Virus record (IMG/VR): IMGVR_UViG_3300007735_000688
Location: 1 to 37,117 of that record
Reading direction: 5' to 3' (one strand)
DNA length: 37,117 nucleotides
Source: a virus
Numbering within the stretch: position 1 is the first letter of the stretch; every line of letters starts with the position of its first letter. Position numbers and translations under genes: made by a program. Shown piece after piece: positions 1-37,117 of this stretch. The notes under the pieces are model-generated. The model was given only the letters and a program-made list of their open reading frames with translations. It was not told where the DNA came from and searched no databases.

Positions 1-27
1 AGGCACTGCTTGTAGCTGACAGTTATA
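1..27. repeat. 27-bp direct repeat, copy 1 (half of an attC-like element)
   Basis: The first 27 bases of the window recur exactly at 36372-36398. The copies diverge immediately afterwards (A here, G there). The copy at 36372 is the right half of an imperfect palindrome, so this copy is a half site cut by the window edge. It ends in GTTATAAGC (22-30), which recurs at 303-311. Confidence 0.8.
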
Positions 28-241
28 AGCCATTTAAGTCGACCATCTCCAAAAATTCGTATTCATTCTTACTGTTAGGCGTATATTTCTGAATATAAAG
101 CGTTTTACAACTTATGTGCAAATTCAAATCATCAACTTTTACATTGTGCTTTTTTGCTAATTCTGAAAACAAACGGCTTATAACAGCACCTAAACAAGAT
201 GGCTGACTTTCGTTTTCTAATGGAGCTTTATCTGTACTCAT
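23..241 (-). CDS. hypothetical protein, 72 aa
   Basis: Small ORF of unknown function with no recognised domain. The start at 241 follows an A/T-rich leader like other starts in this window. The stop codon lies inside the 27-bp repeat, and the first ~22 codons lie within a long inverted repeat (176-311). The ORF therefore occupies most of a ~280-bp unit bounded by two GTTATAAGC boxes, as a gene cassette would. The protein is mixed charged/polar with no membrane segment. It could be a chance ORF, because it is embedded in repeats. Confidence 0.45.
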   Translation of the reverse strand: MSTDKAPLENESQPSCLGAVISRLFSELAKKHNVKVDDLNLHISCKTLYIQKYTPNSKNEYEFLEMVDLNGL

Positions 242-311
242 AAATTTGTTTTTTAAATTAAGTTTCGAGGTATTAATCAGCCACCTCGTTTAGCTGCAAA
301 GCGTTATAAGC
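176..311. repeat. long imperfect inverted repeat, attC-like
   Basis: The left arm is GCTTATAAC (176-184), 5 nt, then a 17-nt block (190-206). The right arm is a 17-nt block (277-293), 9 nt, then GTTATAAGC (303-311). The outer 9-mers are perfect complements. The inner 17-mers have two mismatches, both of which become G-U pairs in a minus-strand transcript. The loop is 70 nt. The R-spacer-L/L-spacer-R layout and the 136-nt size resemble integron attC sites, although the core GTTATAA does not fit the classical GTTRRRY. Confidence 0.6.
266..288. terminator. small hairpin CGAGGT/ACCTCG
   Basis: CGAGGT (266-271) and ACCTCG (283-288) form a 6-bp stem with an 11-nt loop. It overlaps the right arm of the larger inverted repeat, so the two folds compete. 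Thirteen bases (279-291) recur in inverse orientation in the terminator-like hairpin at 4733-4755. There is no good T-run, so a terminator role is weak. Confidence 0.3.
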
Positions 312-314
312 AAG

Positions 315-401
315 TTGTGGGGGATTGGATTCGAACCAATGCAAGTCCCAACCTTTTCATGTCATTCCTACCACAGGTCAATTACGGGAAACGCCCCACA
401 A
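315..401 (-). tRNA. tRNA-like element, non-canonical or degenerate
   Basis: Read on the minus strand, the ends pair as TTGTGGGG (401-394) with CCCCACAA (322-315). A textbook T-arm (ATTGG, loop TTCGAAT, CCAAT, carrying the GGTTCGAATCC box B) sits just before the 3' strand. The interior (~50 nt) gives no canonical D-arm and no 5-bp anticodon arm with a 7-nt loop. The best alternative is a GACCT/AGGTT stem with a ~20-nt loop. CCA is not encoded. This may be a decayed tRNA, a tRNA-like structure or an att-site remnant. No anticodon can be assigned. Confidence 0.4.
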
Positions 402-422
402 CTATACTTATAACACTTACCA

Positions 423-725
423 TCACTCCAAGTACACCACTAACTTATCTTGATTGCTTTCTTCCTCATCAATCTCAAAGACTCCCAATGGTACATTTTG
501 CGATATGGCAATATGAAATAACCGATGGTCACGAGATGACTTTGGAACACAGACTCTATAAGTCTTACCTTGATAGTCAATCGTTGGTCTTGTGATTGTC
601 AACACACCACCACGATACGATGTAAGCACCTCAGTAGTATGTTGAAAGAACGGATGTTGCGAAGTTACACGATAGCTATGCTGATTGGTGCTATACACTA
701 TCTTGATGCAGTTAGGAGGTGTCAT
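423..725 (-). CDS. hypothetical protein, 100 aa
   Basis: Small protein of unknown function. The sequence looks beta-rich, with a basic middle and an acidic C-terminus, and has no membrane segment. It begins inside the last codons of the exonuclease gene (4-bp overlap at 722-725), so it is translationally coupled to it and is the last gene of the early/recombination run. Position suggests an accessory to DNA recombination, but nothing in the sequence shows this. Confidence 0.7.
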   Translation of the reverse strand: MTPPNCIKIVYSTNQHSYRVTSQHPFFQHTTEVLTSYRGGVLTITRPTIDYQGKTYRVCVPKSSRDHRLFHIAISQNVPLGVFEIDEEESNQDKLVVYLE

Positions 726-3369: not shown

Positions 3370-3387
3370 TTGTATGTTTTAGTTATT
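3370..3387 (-). repeat. 18-bp leader repeat, copy A
   Basis: Identical to 3575-3592. Each copy lies just before a start codon (at 3368 and 3567), and related AACTAA-containing leaders precede 3232, 4014 and 4253. It is probably a translation-initiation leader rather than a promoter, since it lacks a TAnnTTTG box. Confidence 0.5.
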
Positions 3388-3574: not shown

Positions 3575-3592
3575 TTGTATGTTTTAGTTATT
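3575..3592 (-). repeat. 18-bp leader repeat, copy B
   Basis: Second exact copy of the leader at 3370-3387. It lies 8 bases upstream of the chosen start codon of the 62-aa gene and helps to decide that start. Confidence 0.5.
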
Positions 3593-12567: not shown

Positions 12568-13778
12568 TATCCTATCTTATAGTGTAGTTTAATTGTTTGT
12601 CGCAGTCCTGAAGTACCGCCTGAATACGTTACCCCTTTTACCTTATACAACCCATCTTGTTCAGGTTGTTTAGGATTCTTTATACGCACATTATCACCGT
12701 ATCTCACAAAAGGTATTCCGAACGCTTGGAATGAACCTGTTAAACCATCGTATCGCATTAGTTCAAGTTGCTTCGTTGCACCTTTTATGAGGTCTGCTTC
12801 CGTCTTAGCGGATGGGTCAAAAAACGTAGTACGTTCACCTTCCGTATTATCAGGAGTGTGTTCACCTGACTTGATACTTGTTGTAGTTATCTCACCATTC
12901 TTTAAGGTAACAAGTACTTCAATTCGTTCTTTCTTTAACTTTTTTGAACCATCCTTATTACTTCCATTATCTTTCTCAATCGTGTTGTATGCTCTTGTTG
13001 ATACAACTACATCTTCCTTGCGTTGAAACTCTAACTCTTGACCATCAGCAGGAACATTGCCTTGCTGACCATTCATTATGAATATCTGCTCTTGTGCTTC
13101 TGATGTGTTATATTCCATCACTCCACATCGTAACTCATTACCACGCATATAAGTTGTTAAGCCGAATAGCTTATGCAACCTTTCTAAGAACTGCGCACCT
13201 GTTTCGTTCTCAACAATAATAGCACCAACAGTTGTTGATGATTCTTGGTTCACTACTATTGCGTCTGCGGTTGGATGCTTATCTGCGACTTGGTCTACTA
13301 TATCTTTAAGAATAGTTTCGATAGTATCAGTCGCTTTATATGTCTTGTTCTTTAATGCCGTTTGCTTGAGCAACCACATATTATCCTCAACATCAAAAGT
13401 GATTGGAATCTTTGCGTGAACTCGTGTGATATAGCCGTCTAATATTTGTGAAGTTTCATCAACCCAACCCCAAGTTAGTGATGGCTTTTGATACCTATAC
13501 CCAGCAGTAAGAGTTATCTTATCACCACGCATAATAAGTGGCTCTGAATTGAACCCACCGATATTAACTTTCGATCCATTCAAAGGATTCAACGCATTAC
13601 CCTCATCCTTATAATATAAGTTCTTTGGAATGGTTATTGTTCCCTTACTCGACATCTCCTTCCAAGTTGATTCGTAAGTGTATGATTCCAAGAAGTCAAG
13701 CCTTATAATCTTGTTATGATTAGGGTATGCCGTTGATGGCATTTGCTTAATGGTTATATAGTTGAGTACATTATACAC
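12567..13778 (-). CDS. baseplate hub (gp27/gpD-like), 403 aa
   Basis: Predicted hub linking tail tube and spike. The beta-rich N-terminal half (IIRLDFLESYTYESTWKEMS, RGDKITLTAGY) and a central ETILKDIVDQVADKH/ETGAQFLERLHKLFGL segment resemble gpD/gp27 late-control proteins. The C-terminal half has the GDNVRIKNP...GLYKVKGVTYS pattern. The order tape measure, DUF6046-like protein, hub, spike supports the call. It overlaps the preceding gene by 8 bp. Confidence 0.7.
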   Translation of the reverse strand: MYNVLNYITIKQMPSTAYPNHNKIIRLDFLESYTYESTWKEMSSKGTITIPKNLYYKDEGNALNPLNGSKVNIGGFNSEPLIMRGDKITLTAGYRYQKPSLTWGWVDETSQILDGYITRVHAKIPITFDVEDNMWLLKQTALKNKTYKATDTIETILKDIVDQVADKHPTADAIVVNQESSTTVGAIIVENETGAQFLERLHKLFGLTTYMRGNELRCGVMEYNTSEAQEQIFIMNGQQGNVPADGQELEFQRKEDVVVSTRAYNTIEKDNGSNKDGSKKLKKERIEVLVTLKNGEITTTSIKSGEHTPDNTEGERTTFFDPSAKTEADLIKGATKQLELMRYDGLTGSFQAFGIPFVRYGDNVRIKNPKQPEQDGLYKVKGVTYSGGTSGLRQTIKLHYKIG

Positions 13779-14226
13779 TTGCTATACGGAGTTGATTTGC
13801 GTATTCAGATATGCAGTTGATTGAAAATGTTTGATACGATATACCACCTGCTTGTTGTGGCAAGTCATAACTCTCTACTACTACATCAGTAATACCAAGT
13901 TGATTCAAATAAGGACATACCACACCGATAGATATTGGTGCGTCTAACATTGCCTTCAAATCAAGTCTATCTTGTATAGGTTCGACACCATTTGTATTTG
14001 TAATAGTACCGACTATTGAGATGGCATAATCGTCAAGTCCGATGTATTCTTTAACCGAACCATCTCGCCCTTGAATCTGCGTCTTAATAATCTGCTTCGC
14101 TTGTGATATACTTATCAATGCCGACTTTAATACTATGTCAGGGAATGACTTCGTTTGCCCATCTATTGCAGTTGGATAACTACTTCCGTTAAACTTGATA
14201 ACCGTTGGTGCGTTGTTTAGTATCAT
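13771..14226 (-). CDS. DUF6046-like tail/baseplate protein, 151 aa
   Basis: Contains ...DIVLKSALISISQAKQIIKT followed by GRDGSVKEYIGLDDYAI, the signature of DUF6046 phage tail proteins that lie between tape measure and hub. The rest is beta-rich. It probably adapts tail tube to hub. It is coupled to the tape measure gene through a 1-bp overlap. Confidence 0.65.
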   Translation of the reverse strand: MILNNAPTVIKFNGSSYPTAIDGQTKSFPDIVLKSALISISQAKQIIKTQIQGRDGSVKEYIGLDDYAISIVGTITNTNGVEPIQDRLDLKAMLDAPISIGVVCPYLNQLGITDVVVESYDLPQQAGGISYQTFSINCISEYANQLRIASV

Positions 14227-15821
14227 TATTGTCCTGCTGTATGAAGTGATGAATTAATAGCGTTCAACAACGCATCTGCTACCATATCTTTAACCCTATT
14301 TGCACCTTCCTTGATGTTGGTAGTGTTGATAGTAAACTCCTTAATAATATCGTTTATTTGCATATTGATAGTAACTGATTTACTACCAGTTGCCTTGTCC
14401 GTCTTTGGAGGTGTTGCGCCTGATGCTTTTGCACCTGCACCTGCCGTTGATTTGGCTGATGTTAGTGCAGGTTTCGTTGCACCAAATGCTTGTGCTGCAC
14501 TAATGCCTGATTGATATTCTGATACTTGACCTTTTAGTTTATCAATGCCTTTTTGCATATCATCGGCTTGAGAACTAAATCCTCTTTCACGCAATAGCTT
14601 TTGTCTATCAGTCGCTTTTTCTAAATCAGATTCGGCTTGTTTCAAATCTTGTTGCTCTAACTTGATATAACTTTCGGATAGTTGTTTTCGCAATGCAAGT
14701 TCATTTCCTCCTGCTTTTACCTTTCTTTTTAGGTCTTCTTCAAGCGCACTTGTTGTACTACTTGCGTGTCTCTTCGCATTGTCTTGTTGCATTTGTAATG
14801 CTCGTTCACTTGCTTGAGATACATCATACCAAACTGCTGCAAGAGCAGATACGGCAATTACAAGTAACCCAACAGGTCCAAGTAATGCCGTTGTAGCTAC
14901 TGCCGCTTCTGTTTCTGCAACTGCTGCTGCCGTTGTAGCAATAGCAAACCCTTCGACAAATGGAACAACCGTTACCATTGCCGTTGCAAATACACCTATA
15001 CCGACTGCAAGGTCAGCAATTAATTCTTTATTCTCCTTTACCCATTTAACTGCGTTACTTAATCCTTCTATCAAAGATGTTAATGCAGGTTTCAAGTCCA
15101 TTATCAAAGCCATCACCATACCACCTATCTCTTCACGCACATTGTTAAATTCATTCTTTAGTACTATCATTGGACCTGTACCGACTTCTGATGCAGCTAA
15201 TGCTGAACCACCAAACTCGGTTTGTAATTCTTGAAGTATTAACTTCTGCGCACCTGCAACATCATTCATTGCCACCATACTTTTAATGGTAGATTTCTGC
15301 GCTTCGGTGAACGATACACCTGCTCTTGACAATGCAGTTATACCCTTAATAGGGTCATTCAATGCCTTACCTACTTGGAGTGTAGTACCTTGTAAATCAC
15401 CACCCATCTTTGTTGACATATCAACAATAGCAGGAATGGCATCCATATAGATGGTATCCTTTACTTTTGTAAATGTTGCAAGTAAAGATTGAGAACTCGT
15501 GATGGCATCATCGTCAAACAATGACTTCTTCATCAATGCTTCTGATTGCTTGTCTAACGCATCACGATTCAAGTTAGCAGCATTAGCCGTACTTCGTAAT
15601 GTTGCGTCTAATTGAGCCGATGCTTGAGCCGATTCGTTGAACATATCAACACTCTTGTTGATGAATGCCAATCCTTCATAAACACCAAAGAATCCGAGTG
15701 CAGTAGTTTTAACTTTATCGAATGCCGAATCCAACGCACGAGTAGAACCTATTGCACCATTTATCCCCGATTGGAATCCGTCCGATTTAAGTCCTAATAT
15801 GTATTCTACTATGTTTGCCAT
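14226..15821 (-). CDS. tape measure protein, 531 aa
   Basis: Sets tail length. Helical N-terminal region with typical TMP phrases (FQSGINGAIGSTRALDSAF, SSQSLLATFTKVKD, LQVGKALNDPIKGITALSRAG). Hydrophobic segments occur around residues 270-335. Then come a charged coiled coil (~345-425) and a Ser/Thr/Lys-rich linker. For a contractile phage the protein is short, implying a short tail of roughly 80 nm by the usual 1.5 Angstrom per residue rule. The ATG overlaps the stop of the chaperone extension frame. Confidence 0.85.
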   Translation of the reverse strand: MANIVEYILGLKSDGFQSGINGAIGSTRALDSAFDKVKTTALGFFGVYEGLAFINKSVDMFNESAQASAQLDATLRSTANAANLNRDALDKQSEALMKKSLFDDDAITSSQSLLATFTKVKDTIYMDAIPAIVDMSTKMGGDLQGTTLQVGKALNDPIKGITALSRAGVSFTEAQKSTIKSMVAMNDVAGAQKLILQELQTEFGGSALAASEVGTGPMIVLKNEFNNVREEIGGMVMALIMDLKPALTSLIEGLSNAVKWVKENKELIADLAVGIGVFATAMVTVVPFVEGFAIATTAAAVAETEAAVATTALLGPVGLLVIAVSALAAVWYDVSQASERALQMQQDNAKRHASSTTSALEEDLKRKVKAGGNELALRKQLSESYIKLEQQDLKQAESDLEKATDRQKLLRERGFSSQADDMQKGIDKLKGQVSEYQSGISAAQAFGATKPALTSAKSTAGAGAKASGATPPKTDKATGSKSVTINMQINDIIKEFTINTTNIKEGANRVKDMVADALLNAINSSLHTAGQ

Positions 15822-15991
15822 TACTCGAATTTAACTTGATGTGCTACTTCTAAGAACCACTTTGCTCTACAATACTCCTTTGCAAATTCATCATCTGATA
15901 ATGCCTCAGGGTCTAAATGACAACAACACCGAATATACGCAGCCATACGGTGTATATCTTCGGTGTCGTTGTTAATTTTGTATTCGCTTAG
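15821..15991 (-). CDS. -1 frameshift extension of the tail assembly chaperone, 56 aa
   Basis: There is no ATG-started gene here, but the -1 frame is open from the slippery site to a stop overlapping the tape measure ATG. It encodes LSEYKINNDTEDIHRMAAYI followed by RCCCHLDPEALSDDEFAKEY and ending VAHQVKFE. This is the T part of a G/GT tail chaperone pair, which recruits the tape measure. The fused product would be ~183 aa. Confidence 0.8.
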   Translation of the reverse strand, partial: LSEYKINNDTEDIHRMAAYIRCCCHLDPEALSDDEFAKEYCRAKWFLEVAHQVKFE

Positions 15992-16371
15992 TTTTTTTTA
16001 AAGCGATTTGTTACGATGGTAATAACACCAAGACAATGTTGAACTACACCTAATTTATACGGCTCACAATCATACGTTTCGCCATAAGTCAATGGATGCG
16101 ATTCTTCTTTGATTTGGTATATCAACCGAAGTTCTTCTCCTGCTGCATACATATCTAACTCACTCGCTTTACCCATTAACGCTAACTTACTTACATAGTT
16201 CGGCTCTTTAATGTAGCTTACTATTCGTTCGTTAGTTTCAGGTTTAAATTGTACGCAAACGTGAACTTTGCCTACGTTATGTGCCGTTGCTAATTCGATA
16301 CACTTATCTTCATAACTCTTGCGTTCTTCATCACTGATGATGTCTGTTAATACTGTTACTTCTTTTGCCAC
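15988..16371 (-). CDS. tail assembly chaperone (G-type), 127 aa
   Basis: Helical/acidic protein located between tail tube and tape measure, the invariant position of tail assembly chaperones. The ORF ends NRFKKN-stop at a run of eight A followed by C (minus strand), an efficient -1 slippery sequence, allowing a longer GT form to be made. The short form coats the tape measure and the long form recruits tube subunits in known systems. Function is assigned from position and the frameshift, with limited direct motif support. Confidence 0.75.
   Translation of the reverse strand: MAKEVTVLTDIISDEERKSYEDKCIELATAHNVGKVHVCVQFKPETNERIVSYIKEPNYVSKLALMGKASELDMYAAGEELRLIYQIKEESHPLTYGETYDCEPYKLGVVQHCLGVITIVTNRFKKN
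15991..15999 (-). promoter_or_regulatory. -1 ribosomal frameshift slippery site (A8C)
   Basis: On the minus strand the bases are AAAAAAAAC, containing A-AAA-AAC in register (codons TTT AAA AAA AAC then TAA). Slipping one base back enters the open extension frame at CTA. Confidence 0.8.
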
Positions 16372-16396
16372 TTTATTTTGATTTAATTGTTACGAA

Positions 16397-16822
16397 TTAT
16401 ACTCTATCAATACCACCGATTGCCAATGGAATGTCAAGCAATACTTTTGTATCACCTGCACTTACTGAGAATGGATTTGACTTAAAGTTTACAGCGTGAA
16501 GTGTCTCTTTACGATACCCTCCTGTCGCTGCACCACCGAACACTATCGTTACCTCGAATGGAGGTAATGATAATGGGTCTTTCAAAGGTGATGCGTCAAT
16601 GATGCGATTCCAAACATCTTTGTAAATGCTTATGGATCCTGTATACTTCTTTTGACCGAATCCTCTTGATGTTGGATTAACACCAAGAGAATAGTTATCG
16701 TCAATAGTTTGCTCTTCCATATACTCAACTTTAGTGATACCGATTACAGGTCCTAAGATTGGTATGATGACGGTGATATTAACGCTTGAATAGTTAACTC
16801 CGTTTAATAATGCTGTTGCCAT
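16397..16822 (-). CDS. tail tube protein, 141 aa
   Basis: Beta-rich protein (VNITVIIPILGPVIGITKVEY, KKYTGSISIYKDVW, PPFEVTIVFGG, GDTKVLLDIPLAIGGI) of the size of contractile tail tube subunits. It lies directly between the sheath gene and the tail chaperone, the standard order. No enzymatic motif. Confidence 0.75.
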   Translation of the reverse strand: MATALLNGVNYSSVNITVIIPILGPVIGITKVEYMEEQTIDDNYSLGVNPTSRGFGQKKYTGSISIYKDVWNRIIDASPLKDPLSLPPFEVTIVFGGAATGGYRKETLHAVNFKSNPFSVSAGDTKVLLDIPLAIGGIDRV

Positions 16823-16826
16823 TTTG

Positions 16827-18383
16827 TTATGCTATTGATGGTTTAAATCCGATTGGAATAGATATGATTCGTGCAACTCCATTGATTACCAATGTTACTG
16901 CGATAGTTAGCGTTGATGTACTAAGTACATTCTGTGAAGGATTGATTGTAACCGACTTAGCAGATAATTCGCCATCTTTAACCATTTGGTCAAGTGCAGC
17001 ATTACCAACATTTTCAAAGTAAGCAATCGTGTTATCGGTGATAGTTCCATTAGCGTTGAACGTGATAGGTGAGTTCAATAATGGAGTGTAAGCCGAATAC
17101 AAGTTACGTTCCGCTTTACAGATGGTGCGGTTGTTCTCAATGTAAGCATAATCTGAGGTAGTGGCGACCGCACACGATGAATCCACCCAGAACGTACCGC
17201 TTACCCCTGTAAATTTCTTAGCCCATAAATGACGCTTAGAGAACAATGCCTCCAATGCTGATTGGCTCAATGCAGTCCATAATTGACCATTGCAAAATTC
17301 GACTATTTCATTCTCAACACCATCACTAATGTTAAACTTCCCAACCCAAGCAATCGATTCGCTTACTTTAGCAAGTGCGACTGTACCTAATGCACAACCG
17401 ATGTTTGTGATTGATTTCTTAGCACCACTTACTAATGATGATTCAAACAAGAAGTTGCCTTTACCGCCTCCATCTTGAGAGATGACCGATGTTACAAGAT
17501 TAGTTGTTGCAGTAGAGAAATCAGTTACGGTTGTAATGTCGGCAGTACCTACCAAGTTACCTGCGTATAAAATACTCAACGGCTTATAGTTCGTCTTGTT
17601 AGTATTCGCTATTGTGTTGAGTATTGTAATATCACCACTTGCCCAAGTACCATCTTTAAACACGGCTACTTGACGCATTGAACCATTTGCATAAGTTTGC
17701 ATATCTGTAATCTCGGTGTAAGTAGTTGATGTGTTGTACAAACCAACATACAAGATGCCTTTAGGTTGCATACGGAAGAACTCGCTAATATGATAATAGT
17801 GAATTGCCGATTGAGAACTTGCACCACCTGAGAATGCTACAATAGTACCTGCGATTGCCGTTCCTGTTGTCACATACGTTGCTGTCATTGATACGGTGTT
17901 CAAGAATGAACCCTGAGCTTTAGGTGCTGTAACCGTAACCGTTGCCGTTGATGATGTTGCACTATATCCGTGAGTTGCAGTACCTGAGTTGATAATGTTC
18001 TTGATAGCCGTTGCTACTAAAGTAGTGGTTGTATCAGCAGCAACTTTGGTATAAACTCCAAGTGAAGTTGTACGAGTTGCGCCTGTTAATGGATTCAAAT
18101 CTGCGACCTTCAATTCTACTGTATTACCATCTGAACCAACTGCCGTAACTGCATAAGAACCTGATGCTGCCGTAGCGTCTGAATAATCCTTTGCGATACC
18201 TGCTGCAACTGCATCATCAGCACTATACAAGGCTTTAACTCTTGCAGTTGTAGTGAATCCTGATGGCAATACTGTTGCATAAGTTGACGAGAATACTGCG
18301 TATCCGCTTATATGGTCTTTACTTTCAAGTGGTCGACCTAATCCACCGCTACCTTCTATGAAGGTTATATTTGGCTGTGCCAT
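16827..18383 (-). CDS. contractile tail sheath protein, DUF2586-like, 518 aa
   Basis: Predicted sheath subunit surrounding the tube. N-terminus NITFIEGSGGLGRPLESKDHIS, a Thr/Ala/Ser-rich variable insertion (~70-195), then the conserved core (HYYHISEFFRMQPKGILYVG, KPLSILYAGNL, TNIGCALGTVALAKVSESIA) and C-terminal YIENNRTICKAERNLYSAYTPLLNSPI. The C-terminal half carries the conserved sheath core; the outer insertion is probably exposed. It defines the virus as a myovirus-type phage. Confidence 0.8.
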   Translation of the reverse strand: MAQPNITFIEGSGGLGRPLESKDHISGYAVFSSTYATVLPSGFTTTARVKALYSADDAVAAGIAKDYSDATAASGSYAVTAVGSDGNTVELKVADLNPLTGATRTTSLGVYTKVAADTTTTLVATAIKNIINSGTATHGYSATSSTATVTVTAPKAQGSFLNTVSMTATYVTTGTAIAGTIVAFSGGASSQSAIHYYHISEFFRMQPKGILYVGLYNTSTTYTEITDMQTYANGSMRQVAVFKDGTWASGDITILNTIANTNKTNYKPLSILYAGNLVGTADITTVTDFSTATTNLVTSVISQDGGGKGNFLFESSLVSGAKKSITNIGCALGTVALAKVSESIAWVGKFNISDGVENEIVEFCNGQLWTALSQSALEALFSKRHLWAKKFTGVSGTFWVDSSCAVATTSDYAYIENNRTICKAERNLYSAYTPLLNSPITFNANGTITDNTIAYFENVGNAALDQMVKDGELSAKSVTINPSQNVLSTSTLTIAVTLVINGVARIISIPIGFKPSIA

Positions 18384-35363: not shown

Positions 35364-35405
35364 TGTATGTGTTTTGCTGAATCACAGCTTGTTTATGTTG
35401 TTATG

Positions 35406-35771
35406 TTATGCGCATTTAACTATCTCAAACCTACTAATGATACACCCATCACCACTATATCTCTTACGAGGCTCATATAAGGAAGTCTTCAAATTTGGTG
35501 CATTGTATCGAAGCAAGGTAACATATCTTTCGTAAATTGGATCGTGCGTATTCCTCATATTATCCACTACTTTAAGCGAATTGATAACTGTTGTATGGTC
35601 ACGATTGGACAAAAATTGTCCTATTTGCGATTTGTTGTATCCATTCTCGTAAGCTATGTAACAAAACAAATGTCTTGCGGTTGCGATGTCTAAAGTACCA
35701 CGTCCAAATCCTTGAATCTTCTTGATTGGGATGTTTAACCCAGTTGCGATGTCTATTAGTATATTATCCAT
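35406..35771 (-). CDS. free-standing DnaA domain IV-like protein, 121 aa
   Basis: Residues ~29-70 contain TARHLFCYIAYENGYNKSQI and GQFLSNRDHTTVIN, the HTH and RDHTTV signature of DnaA domain IV, which binds DnaA boxes. There is no AAA+ domain. The protein may recruit host replication or mark the phage origin. It overlaps the HTH gene by 8 bp and precedes the SSB-like gene. Confidence 0.75.
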   Translation of the reverse strand: MDNILIDIATGLNIPIKKIQGFGRGTLDIATARHLFCYIAYENGYNKSQIGQFLSNRDHTTVINSLKVVDNMRNTHDPIYERYVTLLRYNAPNLKTSLYEPRKRYSGDGCIISRFEIVKCA

Positions 35772-36186
35772 TGTGCGATGCTTTTAGTCCGTAATCAGAT
35801 AGTGATGGATACACCCATTGGAAGTCCACCATATCAGGTGCAAGTGGTGTGTTATCTATTAACAATGCTTTCTCCTTCTTGGCTTTAAGTTTAGCACCGA
35901 ATCCTGACTTCACTTTGATACCACGATATTGGATGTAGTGCCTAAGTTGGTGTTCCGTTATTCCATAATGTTCCGCCCATTCAATTGCTGTTTTCTCCAT
36001 CGAATGTTCCATTATGTATTCCAAAACTATGGGTGATGTGCGATATCCTGAATCTTTACCTTTTAGTCCATTTCTATAAAAGAATTGGTGCATTGTGCGA
36101 TAAGTTACATTGGCAAGTTTCGCCCATTCTTTGTAGGTGTATTTGGTCGGTGTTGCTTTGATTTGTTTAACTATTTCTATGTTCAT
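35764..36186 (-). CDS. tandem-HTH DNA-binding protein, 140 aa
   Basis: Two similar ~25-residue blocks: EWAKLANVTYRTMHQFFYRN (20-39) and EWAEHYGITEHQLRHYIQYR (69-88), each with the turn and hydrophobic pattern of a helix-turn-helix. A basic linker (KLKAKKEKA) follows. It is probably a DNA-binding regulator or replication accessory protein. It shares 20 bp with the upstream small gene and overlaps the DnaA-like gene. Confidence 0.65.
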   Translation of the reverse strand: MNIEIVKQIKATPTKYTYKEWAKLANVTYRTMHQFFYRNGLKGKDSGYRTSPIVLEYIMEHSMEKTAIEWAEHYGITEHQLRHYIQYRGIKVKSGFGAKLKAKKEKALLIDNTPLAPDMVDFQWVYPSLSDYGLKASHNG

Positions 36187-36322: not shown

Positions 36323-36348
36323 TGTTTGTTTAATTATTTGTCTTACCG

Positions 36349-36398
36349 ATAACTTGCGCTACAAAGCAATGAGGCACTGCTTGTAGCTGACAGTTATA
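36349..36398. repeat. attC-like palindromic element containing repeat copy 2
   Basis: Arms pair as ATAACT (36349-36354), GCTACAAAGCA (36358-36368) with TGCTTGTAGC (36378-36387) and AGTTAT (36392-36397), leaving one unpaired A in the left arm and unequal spacers. Bases 36372-36398 are identical to window bases 1-27. The fold with an extra-helical base is like an integron attC. A plus-strand terminator is possible, since a T-tract follows. Confidence 0.6.
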
Positions 36399-36481
36399 GG
36401 AAATTTTTTTTTAATTTTTTTTGCCCACCCACAAAGAGAGAACACAGAGAAAAAACCAATTTTAATTTTTCTTCCATCCCT

Positions 36482-37117
36482 TTAAGTTGATTTACAAAAA
36501 CAATCGTATTCAATATCTAATTCAGCATCAAACATTGTCATTTGTTGCTTATTCGTTTCGTGTTCATCAGTTGCTTTTCTGAAATTGCTTTTGCTCAATT
36601 CAATCAAATCCATAGCCGATTTATTCTTTCTGAAAAATACATATTCTCCTTCGCCATATTTCACTTCCATATCATTCCACCATTCAATCATTTTCGGCTG
36701 TTCTAAAATCATTGTAAGTAGTTTGCGTTCTGATTTTTTCCAACACATATCACAGTTGCCTTCGTAATCTTTCAACTGCAAATCAAAATCTTGCCTATCC
36801 CACCATTTGCGAATGAAATCTTTTGTGGCTCTTACTTCGGTTGCCAACGGATAAACAAATTTGTTCTCTAATGCTTTTGCCCAGTTAATGCGGTGTGCTT
36901 CGTCAATTCCTATTCCTATTGCAGTTTCCCAATCAGCAAAACCAAGCGACTGCATATATTTTTTAATGCAAACTTGTTTCAGTTCCCTTGTGCAATGCGG
37001 AAATGCTTTGTTTGGTATTCCGTATTTCTTAATCATTGCCTCAAATGGTTCACCTGTTCGGCTTGCAGTTTCAAAATCTACAATCTTAAATGATGTGACT
37101 TTGCCAATCTCAAAGTT
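36482..37117 (-). CDS. PAPS-reductase-family protein, 5' truncated
   Basis: The frame is open to the right edge (at least 211 residues), so the start lies outside. Visible motifs are KYGIPNKAFPHCTRELK near the N-terminal side and CDMCWKK (CxxC) in the C-terminal half, typical of the phosphoadenosine-phosphosulfate reductase family found in phages and DNA phosphorothioation (DndC-like) proteins. The N-terminal ATP-binding loop is outside the window. It is separated from the phage genes by the attC-like element, so it may be cargo or part of another unit. Confidence 0.7.
   Translation of the reverse strand, partial: NFEIGKVTSFKIVDFETASRTGEPFEAMIKKYGIPNKAFPHCTRELKQVCIKKYMQSLGFADWETAIGIGIDEAHRINWAKALENKFVYPLATEVRATKDFIRKWWDRQDFDLQLKDYEGNCDMCWKKSERKLLTMILEQPKMIEWWNDMEVKYGEGEYVFFRKNKSAMDLIELSKSNFRKATDEHETNKQQMTMFDAELDIEYDCFCKST

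Follow-up and report, generated by a model that had tools for sequence, protein, structure and literature searches.

What does it signify that a viral contig begins with 27 bases that recur exactly near its other end, on the far side of its phage genes? The window analysed here is the whole stretch of 37,117 nt held as IMG/VR record IMGVR_UViG_3300007735_000688 (positions 1–37,117), and the repeat, AGGCACTGCTTGTAGCTGACAGTTATA, is by far its longest exact repeat, with a chance expectation of about 2.6e-7. An earlier note on this DNA had described the copies at 1–27 and 36372–36398 as identical and as parting company immediately past GTTATA, and our sequence comparison bears out both statements. 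We propose, with a probability of roughly 85% and on the strength of comparative sequence analysis, that the repeat represents a recombination site, belonging to an integron-type cassette array which the phage carries.

The resident site and cassettes of the window

The right-hand copy lies within an imperfect palindrome with unequal spacers and an extrahelical base, which the earlier note had seen and which is indeed present at 36346–36400. The order of its elements is R'' TAAC, spacer, GCTACAA, an extra A, loop, TTGTAGC, the spacer TGACA and R' GTTAT(A) (Table 1). This hairpin folds better than its dinucleotide shuffles (DNA z of -3.5 for the top strand and -4.0 for the bottom), with no preference between the two strands. 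The 27-bp repeat is the 3' half of this one 55-bp attC-like hairpin, followed by two differing continuations; the contig is cut at the array and begins at base 1, probably because the assembler could not decide which of two continuations with a common 27-mer to follow. About ten related contigs carry the same resident site, with conserved sequence upstream of it and sequence that differs right after GTTAT downstream.

Searches with the resident site itself gave no match in a scan of bacterial genomes, so that the link to a host came via the variable cassette sites described below; BLAST of the site returned no match among named phages and one weak partial match among plasmids. The site was also missed by R1, a 131-position covariance model built from the bacterial sites alone, and, as it is short as well, its membership of the site family rests on its anatomy and on the exchanges seen there. 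Its 20-bp right half recurs in other viral contigs. In one of these, 180 kb long (L013, 7490–7520), the right half is conserved, the left half has diverged and the surroundings are unrelated.

Structural and replication genes do lie between the two copies, as had been noted, and they describe a phage with a contractile tail: sheath, tape measure, baseplate, portal and terminase are encoded, together with a BT4734-type primase, a DUF3127 single-stranded DNA-binding protein (SSB) and a DnaA-C-like protein, nearly all long genes lying on the minus strand. Those window proteins that were searched include no integrase or recombinase. The host is probably one of the Bacteroidota, to judge by the gene content and the type of attC. 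Within the phage genes, a short direct repeat, TTGTATGTTTTAGTTATT, occurs at 3370–3387 and 3575–3592.

Past the left copy lies a second, larger attC-like hairpin that was absent from the earlier note. R1 recognizes it with 80.1 bits (E 3.1e-16), and over 175–312 the bottom strand folds much better than the top (-23.1 versus -13.6 kcal/mol). It belongs to cassette B, at whose two ends the arms GTTATAAGCC and GGCTTATAAC complement each other. The adjoining segment A appears to have lost its attC body and holds a tRNA-like stem-loop with a T-arm (ATTGG TTCGAAT CCAAT) and a long acceptor-like stem; ARAGORN and Rfam called no tRNA or other RNA at 313–402. Past the right copy, the alternative continuation contains a PAPS-reductase-like gene (match to phrog_424, E 3.5e-23) that is probably part of another cassette, its far end beyond the contig. 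The R' sequences of the window, GTTATAA and GTTATAG, do not fit the GTTRRRY consensus.

Table 1. Positions of the resident site, cassettes and flanking genes in the window
Feature	Position	Strand	Basis or remark
Resident (proximal) attC-like hairpin	36346..36400	+	Palindrome; shared by about ten related contigs
Elements of the resident site	R'' core TAAC 36350–36353; L'' 36358–36364; L' 36381–36387; R' 36393–36398		
Predicted crossover of the resident site	between 36393 and 36394		
Left copy: 3' half of the resident hairpin, where the contig is broken	1..27 (R' core 22–27)	+	Identical to 36372–36398
Cassette B, beginning with the TT of the first R' and ending with the G of the R' that follows	23..303	+	Complementary end arms
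attC of cassette B, Bacteroidota type (AGCACCTA...TAGCTGCAAAGC GTTATAAG)	179..308	+	Model R1
72-aa ORF of cassette B	23..241	-	Start inside its own attC (179–308); stop codon from the R' sequence
Cassette-like segment A	304..420	-	tRNA-like stem-loop (about 313–402) between TTATAAG arms
g100, conserved phage gene, far side of the cassette locus	423..725	-	
Second cassette locus in this family of phages, flanked by the DnaA-C-like gene and the SSB gene	35364..35405		Empty in the window
HNH-type phage gene, near side of the cassette locus	35764..36186	-	
Alternative continuation past the resident site	36394..37117	-	PAPS-reductase-like gene (36482–37117, 5' end open)

Cassette loci and cassette sharing among phages

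Relatives of the phage were gathered from IMG/VR through their exonuclease and SSB genes, and they share the gene order exonuclease, g100, cassette locus, HNH gene, DnaA-C gene, SSB. The interval between g100 and the HNH gene takes several forms: 27 bp without a site (L025, L038), 86 bp with the site alone (L026, L030, L037), and several hundred to about 1,200 bp, holding one or two cassettes, in the other relatives. Sequence on the HNH side stays constant up to GTTA(T), differing cassettes follow, and the breakpoints fall at G^TTAT. Since g100 and the HNH gene are adjacent inside the relatives' contigs, the two ends of the window are neighbours in one phage genome and not host flanks; that genome is circular or circularly permuted in the relatives. 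R1 detects sites in most of them, finding none in L025, L038 or L030, the last with the short resident site only, and through R1 the second cassette locus was found to be filled in L026, L031, L032, L033, L035, L037 and L052.

The ends of individual cassettes are complementary, as in L031 (GTTAGCCGC/GCGGCTAAC) and L032 (GTTAGGTGCA/TGCACCTAAC), which is the signature of integron cassettes, whose arms meet in the circular form. At positions 1–4 past GTTA/TAAC, the two arms of the same cassette match at frequencies of 0.86, 0.79, 0.78 and 0.88, as against 0.37, 0.33, 0.26 and 0.44 when cassettes are shuffled. All four positions match in 73/100 bacterial and 10/11 phage cassettes, and in another count of phage cassettes the ends are complementary past the core in 71/106. 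With empty, one-cassette and two-cassette versions in the relatives, complementary ends and a crossover at G^TT, the attC-like cassette system that the earlier note had listed among its possibilities is the one that the comparison upholds.

Cassettes are also shared between phages. The 20-bp pattern characteristic of the bacterial sites (next section) occurs in at least 120 viral stretches, and R1 gives 189 matches in the viral loci retrieved for it. Fourteen whole-cassette alignments between phage contigs, at 86–100% identity, involve about six different cassettes; homology ends within 15 nt of both predicted cassette ends, in most cases within 5 nt, and such precise sharing spans contigs of different samples. 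Between the phage cassettes and the bacterial loci examined, no cassette was found to be shared.

Phage and bacterial cassettes differ in orientation, as judged by the longest ORF. Whereas this ORF lies on the attC strand in 88/97 bacterial cassettes (opposite in 9/97), the arrangement of a canonical integron in which the gene precedes its attC, it lies opposite attC in 100/104 phage cassettes (p about 9e-41, on the assumption of independent cassettes, which does not wholly hold for related contigs) and in 10/10 of a separate set. The large ORFs of phage loci likewise run mostly opposite attC (358/399), and the simplest reading of the reversed cassettes would be selection for genes that are read by phage transcription. 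Among the 100 reversed phage genes, 39 start inside their own attC. We had entertained the idea that such genes are assembled from two cassettes and dropped it: once the crossover point was worked out, gene and attC fell in the same cassette, and no gene fusion is claimed. DNA methyltransferases stand out among the cassette proteins, matches to N6_N4_Mtase being found for three of the ten proteins tested; the largest family comprises 18 of the 115 proteins collected.

Bacterial arrays and their recombinase

A 20-bp pattern taken from two phage cassette sites has matches in at least 116 contigs, almost all from Bacteroidota, where a conserved hairpin some 130 bp long contains the matches. When 22 aligned bacterial sites were compared with a hand-written structure, 85% of cells were paired, as against 67% after shuffling and 30–40% when the structure was slid; compensatory changes occur in 16/25 pairs of the hairpin. 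As a comparison of how well the two strands would fold, wobble cells of the alignment number 44 versus 32. R' in most bacterial sites is GTTA or GTTG followed by variable bases. The remark that the core departs from GTTRRRY, and that a new site family might be at hand, was therefore right in substance, the family being one of GTTR plus cassette-specific bases. In the bacterial loci a recombinase gene comes first and genes then alternate with sites, whose number reaches about 15 in one locus. Sites lie on the recombinase strand in loci with the long recombinase, a layout repeated on plasmid NZ_CP041688 of Chryseobacterium sp. SNU WT5 (locus L269, recombinase at 14001–15044), and on the opposite strand in the loci with the short recombinase that were examined (L291–L294).

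R1 sites occur in 61/118 sampled genomes of the Bacteroidota, the phylum of the Hymenobacter genome G001, and their presence follows that of the recombinase: 39/44 recombinase-positive genomes (E below 1e-80) carry sites, versus 22/74 recombinase-negative ones (odds ratio 18.4, p 2.5e-10). A metagenome-assembled genome titled 'Proteobacteria' (G138, locus L165) has five R1 matches and is the sole case among 120 genomes, the 119 others searched in its phylum having none; the matches are probably contaminating Bacteroidota contigs.

In 20/20 genomes examined, a tyrosine recombinase is encoded whose match to the integron-integrase family falls into two segments separated by a gap. The insertion specific to IntI, present in IntI1 and IntI2, was found in 0/15 aligned Bacteroidota recombinases, and 63–64 residues separate the KDR motif from LRH in 13 further copies, as well as in one phage-borne copy, versus 105 in IntI. 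A tree (midpoint root, small sample) places these recombinases together with IntI, with full support, apart from the XerC/D of their hosts. AlphaFold and Foldseek give a tyrosine-recombinase fold with XerA and IntI4 as its nearest neighbours. Best or near-best scores for the bacterial recombinases come from the NCBIfam model NF040815, which takes its name from archaeal XerA; NCBI already gives the name that this model assigns, 'site-specific tyrosine recombinase/integron integrase', to the Chryseobacterium plasmid copy. Most copies have an extra N-terminal region. In the recombinases of L253–L269 this region precedes the SAM-like domain, is predicted to be beta-beta-alpha-beta-beta, is longer in copies of 457–580 aa and matches no Pfam family.

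Phages can carry the recombinase too, since a relative with 37–47% identity to the bacterial query is encoded by the viral contigs L313 (6324–7193), L307, L358, L359 and L397. In four of these five, attC matches lie in the same locus, making them candidate phage-borne complete systems.

These observations suggest a mechanism in which a short attC-like hairpin is maintained next to the HNH gene of a tailed Bacteroidota phage, and circular cassettes, each a gene with its own attC, would enter and leave at G^TTAT of this resident site. Insertion would most likely be catalysed by the IntI-related tyrosine recombinase, acting on folded single-stranded attC DNA. For the window phage the enzyme would be supplied in trans, presumably by the bacterial host, in whose genomes arrays of the same attC type stand beside that recombinase, or else by a co-infecting phage.

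Alternative explanations and known integrons

Several other readings of the repeat deserve consideration. A block of phage genes with the same core on either side resembles a prophage with its two ends, and the earlier note had listed the att sites of a phage that had integrated or been excised; the copies would then be attL and attR, made by the phage's own integrase at a host site with a 27-bp core. We give this very little credence: the window proteins searched include no such enzyme, what follows the right copy is a PAPS-reductase gene of phage type, and the adjacency of the flanking phage genes inside relatives' contigs (L025, L026, L030, L037) contradicts it. The note had also raised an assembly junction, that is, a circular genome of 36,371 bp broken at a chance repeat, with 36399–37117 as a chimeric tail. 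The contig does start exactly at the repeat, 27 is a k-mer length in some assemblers, and the circular or permuted genome of the relatives would suit such a break. The part of this proposal that stands is that the contig was cut at the array; the repeat itself is biological, as an assembly artefact can produce neither the hairpin, nor its conservation, nor differing cassettes at the same base elsewhere, nor precise cassette sharing between contigs of different samples, and a plain junction is very unlikely. It is likewise highly improbable that the hairpin is some other conserved phage element (a terminator, origin or packaging site) beside which ordinary mosaicism occurs. Hairpins are common near genome junctions and the resident site is conserved in sequence, but the breakpoints fall on G^TTAT, the cassette ends are complementary, and an attC model derived from hosts matches the neighbouring site.

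A different question is whether the sites might be moved by the ordinary IntI integrases, with the insertion, that some Bacteroidota possess. Canonical IntI above the curated cut-off is encoded in 39/118 of the Bacteroidota genomes, and IntI1 can recombine attC sites that come from other virulent phages (Qi et al. 2023, PMC9892861). Yet IntI and sites are unassociated, 16/39 IntI genomes having sites, which is no commoner than in genomes without IntI; eight IntI genes (L298–L305), viewed in stretches of 9 kb or less, are mostly solitary, L304 alone having three weak attC-like matches; and the enzyme that does stand beside the arrays is the one without the insertion. We regard movement by ordinary IntI as unlikely. 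Against the integron-type reading itself count the short resident site that R1 misses, an R' that departs from GTTRRRY, a recombinase lacking an insertion held to be essential, and the failure to find any phage cassette in the bacterial loci examined.

The resemblance to integrons lies in complementary R'/R'' arms, an imperfect L''/L' hairpin, crossover at G^TT and, in bacteria, arrays beside an IntI-related recombinase. The differences lie in a recombinase without the IntI insertion and mostly with an extra N-terminal region, in R' sequences of GTTR and variable bases, and in the long form of the recombinase, which runs in the direction of the array; in addition, whereas the integrase gene of a canonical integron adjoins its array, as the recombinase gene does in the bacteria, none was found among the phage proteins of the window that were searched. 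We looked for the IntI insertion and for the GTTRRRY consensus and found neither; we therefore call the system integron-type and keep it apart from the canonical IntI class. The insertion has been called essential in the literature; if the recombinase acts on these sites, it would not be needed, which bears on the origin of integrons from Xer-like enzymes.

Bacteroidota have been considered nearly integron-free, with one complete case beyond Chlorobi and Ignavibacteriae (IntegronFinder 2.0, PMC9024848). The chromosomal integrons of Salinibacter ruber (PMC9024848), of the same phylum, were found by an IntI-specific profile; because IntegronFinder works with a profile of the IntI-specific domain (PMC9668308), an insertion-less recombinase should be missed. 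About half of 118 Bacteroidota genomes nonetheless carry one attC family beside such a recombinase, pointing to a widespread and poorly recognized integron-like system of gene exchange. The open-access papers that we searched (preprints and most subscription papers lay outside the search) contained no description of this Bacteroidota site family and no account linking NF040815 proteins to arrays of this attC type. We lean towards the view that Bacteroidota and their phages share a distinct integron class with an insertion-less recombinase, the phages holding a pool of reversed, phage-transcribed cassettes through which virulent phages would swap anti-restriction and other genes.

Some virulent phages are known to carry attC clusters without an integrase (CALINs), which include methyltransferase cassettes and are active with IntI1 (Qi et al. 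2023, PMC9892861). The phages studied here resemble them in having integrase-free attC clusters and DNA methyltransferase cassettes, and differ in their attC family, in a fixed locus with empty and filled versions and in genes reversed relative to attC; Polaribacter phage P12002L, the Bacteroidota phage of that study, has no R1 site at E 1e-7. For virulent phages the system would offer modular exchange of single genes, notably DNA methyltransferases, at a defined place and in a defined direction.

A 33.5-kb Bacteroidota-type phage contig (L056) carries at 13186–17409 a regular array of eight attC sites, and its methyltransferase cassette closely resembles that of a different phage, L027.
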